From Candidatus Phaeomarinobacter ectocarpi (GTDB lineage: Bacteria; Pseudomonadota; Alphaproteobacteria; CGMCC-115125): DNA of 64,000 nucleotides. The stretch's first letter is position 1, and each line of letters opens with the position of its first letter. Made by a program: the position numbers and the translations under genes. The DNA is taken from the NCBI RefSeq assembly GCF_000689395.1, contig NZ_HG966617.1, positions 473,521-537,520 on the forward strand. The letters are read 5' to 3'. Under the pieces are notes generated by a model. That model made no database searches and was not told the DNA's origin. It was given only the letters and a program-made list of their open reading frames with translations. This document shows, piece by piece, positions 14,721-55,307 of the stretch.

Positions 14721-14932
14721 GGGCAGCCGATGCACACTGTTCTGCCGCCACCCACTTTGCGGCAAAGCGACGGCATTGAAGATTTTGTATGCAAACGGTA
14801 TGCGGCAACCTGGCCAAATAGCAATCGGATCATTTGTCTGGCGCTTCATTTGTCTGGCGCTGGTGTGTGTGGTCTCATCTGTCACATCGGGAGTGGCCGT
14901 AGGCCCGACGCAGGACCAGCAGGAAGCCAAAA

Positions 14933-16585: not shown

Positions 16586-16620
16586 AAATGAGAGTTATCT
16601 CAAAAATGAGAGTTATCTCA
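16586..16620. promoter_or_regulatory. Duplicated TetR-type operator
   Basis: Two identical 17-bp copies, AAATGAGAGTTATCTCA, lie at 16586-16602 and 16604-16620, an 18-bp period. Each has inverted arms TGAGA and TCTCA around GTTA. They occupy the space between the divergent TetR gene and the monooxygenase gene, 29 bases before the latter's start. The exact repetition and palindromic form point to cooperative repressor binding. Confidence 0.75.
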
Positions 16621-28079: not shown

Positions 28080-28114
28080 GAGAATGAATTGCAATAACAA
28101 TGCGAATGGTTATC
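28080..28114 (-). promoter_or_regulatory. Two overlapping Fur-like boxes
   Basis: Two 19-bp sites each match the Fur consensus GATAATGATAATCATTATC at 12 of 19 positions. One is read on the plus strand at 28080-28098; the other is read on the minus strand at 28096-28114 as GATAACCATTCGCATTGTT. They lie about 100 bases before the outer membrane protein start in an AT-rich island. Between them and that gene is a GC-only hairpin (28007-28023), CCGGGGC/GCCCCGG with a GAC loop. The rest of the 326-base gap (27979-28304) shows no gene. Confidence 0.6.
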
Positions 28115-32546: not shown

Positions 32547-32903
32547 TCAGGCTTTATGTGCCTGCGCCCTGTCGAGGGGAAATGGGATGATCTGAGCTTG
32601 GGAAAGCCCGGGTTCCCAGCGCTCGAAACTGGGAATGAGCTGGCGTCTGAGCGCTTCAGCGACGGCAAAGAGATTTGTCCTGGCCTCAAGTTTCAGGCGT
32701 GCGGACCGCATTTGTGCGGCAATCGTCCGGTCACTGACGCCTCTTATCCCCGCCAGATCCTTGTAGGACTCAAGGTTGCAGGTGCTTAGGAGTGCCATAT
32801 TCCAGACCTCGGCCGGGGTCAGCAGTGTCGGCGGGTGCGTATCAGTCCACATCTCAGCCTGTGCCAGAACCGATTTTGCCTCCAGTGTTTTGAAGCGAGT
32901 CAT
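32547..32903 (-). CDS. Solo LuxR-type HTH protein
   Basis: The C-terminal part of the frame has a GerE-like HTH: LLTPAEVWNMALLSTCNLESYKDLAGIRGVSDRTIAAQMRSARLKLEARTNL. No autoinducer-binding domain precedes it. The long upstream frame to 33188 translates the 17-bp repeats and is Cys-rich noise, so the true start is further in, at 32903 (118 residues) or 32966 (139 residues); neither has a strong ribosome-binding site. It is convergent with the luxRI unit (12 bases apart) and may be a second quorum or envelope regulator acting at the repeat array upstream. Confidence 0.7.
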   Translation of the reverse strand: MTRFKTLEAKSVLAQAEMWTDTHPPTLLTPAEVWNMALLSTCNLESYKDLAGIRGVSDRTIAAQMRSARLKLEARTNLFAVAEALRRQLIPSFERWEPGLSQAQIIPFPLDRAQAHKA

Positions 32904-33083
32904 TGCCGCGTGAATTTCCTGCCTTGGTGACACATGACGCCGCCAGGACCGGCGACAGATGCGCATGCACGTTGAACACACCGCACCATCTACTTTGAGA
33001 TAGTCCCAAAATTCGCAGAGGCTGAAAACTAGCAAGGTTAATAGGGGGGAGGCGGCACCCCCTATACTGGCTTTTCTCACATT

Positions 33084-33151
33084 TTGGCATGCGCCAGATA
33101 TTGGCATGCCCCATATATTGGCATGCCCCAGATATTGGCATGCGAAGTGAC
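33084..33151. repeat. Four-copy 17-bp direct repeat array with GGCATGCC palindromes
   Basis: The core TTGGCATGC begins at 33084, 33101, 33118 and 33135, an exact 17-bp period. The second and third units read TTGGCATGCCCCATATA and TTGGCATGCCCCAGATA; the first and fourth differ at the edges. Each unit holds GCATGC. The array sits between the solo LuxR-type gene (leftward) and the DsbA-like gene (rightward, 33210), and a perfect TGCCATGGCA palindrome lies nearby (33162-33171). Confidence 0.9.
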
Positions 33152-33209
33152 ATAATATGCCTGCCATGGCAAAGTGCGCTGGATTCACCTGCCCTGAGGG
33201 AGACGTCGC

Positions 33210-55275: not shown

Positions 55276-55307
55276 GCACCGGATTGACGAGGCACCGGAT
55301 TGACGAG
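55276..55307. repeat. Perfect 16-bp tandem duplication
   Basis: GCACCGGATTGACGAG occurs twice without a break (55276-55291 and 55292-55307). It lies in the 142-base gap after the distal ABC binding-protein gene. Nothing else is seen in that gap. Confidence 0.9.

Follow-up and report, generated by a model that had tools for sequence, protein, structure and literature searches.

A 17-bp tandem array before a DSBA-domain gene as a probable lineage-specific amplification of a TetR-type operator half-site

The divergent region and its tandem array

The array occupies part of a 306-bp divergent region that separates a gene for an HTH-only protein from a gene for a DSBA-domain protein, downstream of an AHL receptor/synthase pair (Table 1; positions are those of the window, the whole 64-kb stretch of DNA that was analysed). 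Both neighbours are as the original prediction described them, a LuxR-type HTH gene and a kappa-GST-like gene. A long open reading frame covers the array (32547-33188), and its dismissal as spurious holds for the part upstream of about 32903: in G003, a genome of the same genus, this frame stays open over no more than 123 aa.

Table 1. Features of the divergent region and the candidate regulator gene.
Feature	Position	Strand	Remarks
HTH-only protein, 118 aa	32547..32903	-	weak LuxR-type HTH similarity; divergently transcribed
Lux-box-like dyad, AACTAG-N8-ATAGGG	33027..33046	.	upstream of the HTH gene, apart from the array
Three extra left half-sites	33083..33125	+	TTTGGCATG at 33083, ATTGGCATG at 33100 and 33117
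17-bp tandem array, four TTGGCATGC cores (3.5 units)	33084..33143	+	TRF and core positions
Full 21-bp operator-like palindrome, ATTGGCATGCGAAGTGACATA	33134..33154	+	joins unit 4 to the non-repeated right half; kept in G003 and G002; 14.8 bits
The region's sole good right half-site, AGTGACATA	33146..33154	+	
DSBA-domain (kappa-GST/HCCA-isomerase-like) protein, 449 aa	33210..34559	+	GTG start; detoxification-type enzyme; presumed controlled gene
TetR-family protein, own genome, 210 aa	G000:C1:1359752-1360384 (L216:3253-3885)		

The TTGGCATGC cores start at 33084, 33101, 33118 and 33135, a spacing of exactly 17 bp, and TRF scored the array (period 17, 3.5 copies, 93% matches) at 106, the highest value in the window. 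Read in order, the units are TTGGCATGCGCCAGATA, TTGGCATGCCCCATATA, TTGGCATGCCCCAGATA and TTGGCATGCGAAGTGAC; the core is identical in all four, and the spacers differ. Core positions and TRF together confirm the four copies, the 17-bp period and the non-coding nature that had been proposed. The proposed extent, four full units over 33084-33151, stands as regards the four cores but not the final unit, which follows the repeat in its first 9 bp only and departs from it past the core; positions 33144-33151 (AAGTGACA) are not repeat spacer and fall outside the repeat.

To judge how unusual such an array is, we examined 60 simulated 64-kb sequences with the dinucleotide make-up of the window. None contained a 9-mer in three or more equally spaced copies (period 10-60), the maximum being two in all of them, and the array is therefore far beyond chance. 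In real genomes, arrays of at least three copies are not rare, being present in 4 of 50 loci from other genomes (414 kb). The window is part of a single 3.4-Mb contig, and a genome-wide search found this array once in the 3.4-Mb genome. RNA structure at the array was not stable in excess of expectation (z of -0.44 and -0.32), Rfam returned no family for the array region (a single miRNA match was far under the cut-off), and scans for the sigma-70 consensus gave no hit there. Further perfect short tandem duplications are present in the window at 14830-14861, 16586-16620, 23194-23231 and 55276-55307, with units of 16, 18, 12 and 16 bp, respectively.

An operator-like palindrome under the last unit

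We compared the locus among four congeneric genomes, namely its own and those designated G001, G002 and G003. In G003 the whole block is present at 88% DNA identity in a syntenic chromosomal setting, with a single clear unit, CCCACATATTGGCATTCCAAGTGACATAA, which a degenerate second copy (TTGCATTCCCACATA) may precede. G002 likewise has a single copy, ATTGGCAGAGTAAGTGACATAA. G001 lacks the DSBA gene; there the HTH gene adjoins pyrC, the HTH, luxR and luxI genes are kept, but nothing matches the array-side element significantly. The stretch conserved in G003 and G002, ATTGGCA-N4-AAGTGACATAA, reached local scores of 19-24, against a null of 9.3 +/- 1.3. As G003 is essentially single-copy, G002 is single-copy and G001 gave no significant match, the conserved part is the last unit and the DNA after it, not the array. 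At the DSBA gene the element is thus present in three genomes only, all of one genus and two of them close. The GCATGC palindrome stressed in the original prediction is not part of what is conserved, as it reads GCATTC in G003 and GCAGAG in G002. Absence of the array before orthologous genes in close relatives had been named as a result that would count against it; the array is indeed absent there, but the operator under its last unit is not.

The conserved DNA includes a 21-bp operator-like palindrome, some 55 bp ahead of the DSBA-domain gene's start codon, with AAGTGACATA as its right half. Units 1-3 have no right half at operator spacing, and in the operator register they score -17.6, -7.0 and -13.7 bits on a position weight matrix (PWM) of the palindrome, and so do not qualify as operators. 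Unit 4 scores 14.8 bits, compared with 19.6 for the G003 site and 17.3 for the G002 site. Since the region has one good right half, it holds one full operator, accompanied by three left halves that all point the same way as direct repeats. The site at 33134-33154 was absent from the PWM training set. It is a weak, imperfect match that two other window positions surpass, and our claim for it therefore rests on conservation and location. The two higher-scoring matches, at 1493-1513 (17.7 bits) and 28087-28107 (16.7 bits), are themselves still weak.

In G003 the single copy is flanked by the sequence that forms the array's spacer, as expected from tandem duplication of a pre-existing segment. The repeat thus has the marks of one born by slippage, being single-copy in close relatives with a unit that equals pre-existing flank (in G003, CCCACATATTGGCATTC, with the possible degenerate second copy). 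Replication slippage, as the simplest origin of units 1-3, is the most likely one.

A predicted TetR-family regulon

The palindrome is 21 bp long, ATTGGCATT-N3-AATGNCAAT, and we searched for it in the four congeneric genomes allowing up to three mismatches. This yielded 48 hit rows, corresponding to 42 distinct places, whereas the reversed pattern yielded none. The site is thus a palindrome of TetR-like length, of which the copy at the array is an imperfect example. A search of the same genomes with TTGGCA-N4-AAGTGACATAA revealed a second site, ATTGGCATTCTCAGTGACATTT, before a DUF1329 gene and conserved in three of them. Orthologous intergenic sites were found at the genes for DUF1329, a 216-aa protein, a sulfatase, an MBL-fold protein, TauD and a second sulfatase, and other sites precede GSTs, an alpha/beta hydrolase and a DJ-1 gene. 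Some matches are probably due to chance, as they fall within coding DNA; one of these is close to where a 347-aa ORF of L204 starts. G001 has kept tetR (59% identity), yet has almost no consensus sites. In G003 (L190:1979-2025), two full operators lie 25 bp apart between the alpha/beta hydrolase gene and the DJ-1/PfpI gene.

We also took advantage of more distant genomes. A PWM trained without any DSBA-gene site was run on 50 loci holding orthologues of the DSBA gene, mostly Halieaceae-like, and identified 20 sites of more than 20 bits, compared with 0 for each of 30 column-permuted matrices. G012, a member of a different alphaproteobacterial family, has a 29.7-bit site 28 bp upstream of the DSBA-gene orthologue itself.

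A tetR gene is found near the DSBA-gene orthologue in 22 loci and directly adjoins it in several, including the Halieaceae clusters, in which the palindrome is also present. A site of at least 12 bits precedes tetR in 9 of the 22 loci, compared with 4% of random windows. Luminiphilus-type loci have the order tetR, DSBA gene, site, sulfatase gene, MBL gene, site, with a further site 28-38 bp before tetR, which places the DSBA gene behind an operator in these loci too. In Sphingorhabdus the DSBA gene is followed by tetR and then by a sulfatase-maturase (FGE) gene. The genome under study has its own tetR in a cluster with an FGE gene and a sulfatase gene (L216:3253-6472; G000:C1:1359752 onwards), preceded by the operator-like site ATTGACGCGCAATATGCCAAT, and similar sites stand before tetR in all four congeneric genomes. 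Alignment of the TetR proteins extends along their length and is strongest in the HTH region. A putative cognate tetR gene that is linked to targets and has its own site is therefore present, and the tetR/FGE/sulfatase cluster is a candidate for the locus from which the predicted regulon is controlled. An alternative regulator, encoded by a Crp/Fnr gene next to one of the targets, was rejected, as the centre of the palindrome is odd and the neighbourhood evidence for TetR is far stronger.

In the regulon predicted from these sites and gene neighbourhoods, a dimer of the TetR-family protein would bind the 21-bp palindrome and would repress its own gene along with the DSBA-domain gene and scattered sulfatase, GST, MBL, TauD and DUF1329 genes; release by a ligand would end the repression. 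Palindromic operators near target starts and before tetR, and a protein with a TetR_N domain encoded near targets in several lineages, are features shared with known autoregulated TetR-family regulons; unlike those, the present system has targets that are scattered in the genus and half-sites amplified at one of them. In the open papers available, we found no description of the palindrome motif, its gene set or its regulon. The predicted regulon, one TetR-family protein and a 21-bp palindrome with sulfatases, the sulfatase maturase, GST-like, MBL-fold, TauD and DUF1329 genes as targets, thus appears to be undescribed; it spans alphaproteobacterial and Halieaceae-type (gammaproteobacterial) genomes and provides testable targets for many genes of unknown role.

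Origin and possible roles of the array

We consider it probable, on comparative grounds, that the array is a lineage-specific amplification of the left half of a TetR-type operator, and that the functional element is the single operator at 33134-33154, composed of unit 4 and the non-repeated right half. Units 1-3 would then be left half-sites born by replication slippage, and the extra copies are probably neutral or nearly so. As in bacterial minisatellites and other slippage repeats, short units with a perfect core are found in one lineage and are single-copy in its sister; unlike in those, the unit holds half of a conserved operator and abuts an intact one. The array would in this sense be a naturally occurring example, seen by comparing close relatives, of an operator half-site being amplified.

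An unlikely alternative is that the half-sites form a functional cluster, in which the repeats recruit extra regulator or a second protein and tune the promoter by cooperativity or local concentration. The core is identical in four units although the spacers vary, the three extra good left halves exceed what random stretches of the window contain, and the DJ-1 gene of G003, another target, has its two full operators. Against this, units 1-3 lack a right half at operator spacing, the repeats are not kept in relatives, and 17 bp is no whole number of helical turns, so that the half-sites face different sides. A cooperative role of the extra copies is possible, the identity of the core being the sole positive evidence for it. 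We are similarly doubtful that slippage tuned the operator through its copy number, with direct-repeat half-sites beside one full TetR-type operator altering repressor occupancy. Less likely again is a neutral minisatellite unrelated to any operator, its core resembling the palindrome by coincidence. Arrays of at least three copies do occur in 4 of the 50 unrelated loci described above, and an unrelated promoter of G215 carries TTGGCATGC with the same 17-bp period, but three genomes conserve the single-copy ancestor, which runs into the right half, and the same operator stands at the orthologous promoter in G012. A search for the array itself in 385 genomes of the class returned only this unrelated G215 array and a two-copy near match in G358, and so gave no sign of a conserved array system. 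In G215 (L111:1495-1590), another alphaproteobacterial genome, TTGGCATGCTATTATTT recurs at exactly 17 bp before an S49-peptidase-like gene; the 9-mer and the period are the same, the context is unrelated, and the likeness may be a coincidence.

The original prediction had offered replication origins and cooperative operators as known settings of such arrays, here beside quorum-sensing genes; the regulatory reading is the nearer. Iterons are direct repeats of about 17-22 bp, and the array resembles them in period and copy number, but we give an origin of replication hardly any credence: the sister genome G003 has the locus in a syntenic chromosomal setting, the array is absent from G003 and G002, no replication or initiator gene or plasmid context was found among the neighbours examined, exact matches in viral contigs numbered 0, and plasmids and phages gave short, chance-level matches only. 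It is also very improbable that the array is an operator for the adjoining HTH-only regulator or the AHL receptor LuxR. The two are adjacent to it in this genome, G003 and G002, and lux boxes too may adjoin an AHL receptor/synthase pair, but the array consists of 17-bp direct repeats and lacks the form of a lux box, all four genomes have a separate, conserved 20-bp lux-box-like dyad in front of the HTH gene, G001 retains the HTH, luxR and luxI genes with no significant match to the element, and other copies of the palindrome stand at genes a long way from the AHL locus. Since the conserved element matches a palindrome that sulfatase, GST and MBL genes also carry, and the leading candidate for the regulator is the TetR encoded elsewhere rather than the adjoining HTH gene, a quorum-sensing operator is unsupported.

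The dyad reads AACTAT-N8-ATAGG in the relatives (L138:12490, L139:6611 and L091:1898), and the HTH gene may be under quorum control through it. In three of the four genomes it is followed, in the direction of the HTH gene, by TTTCAG-N17-ACTATC. In G002 (L091) the luxRI pair is inverted, and HTH, luxR and luxI are all oriented outward from the divergent region, possibly forming a single operon.
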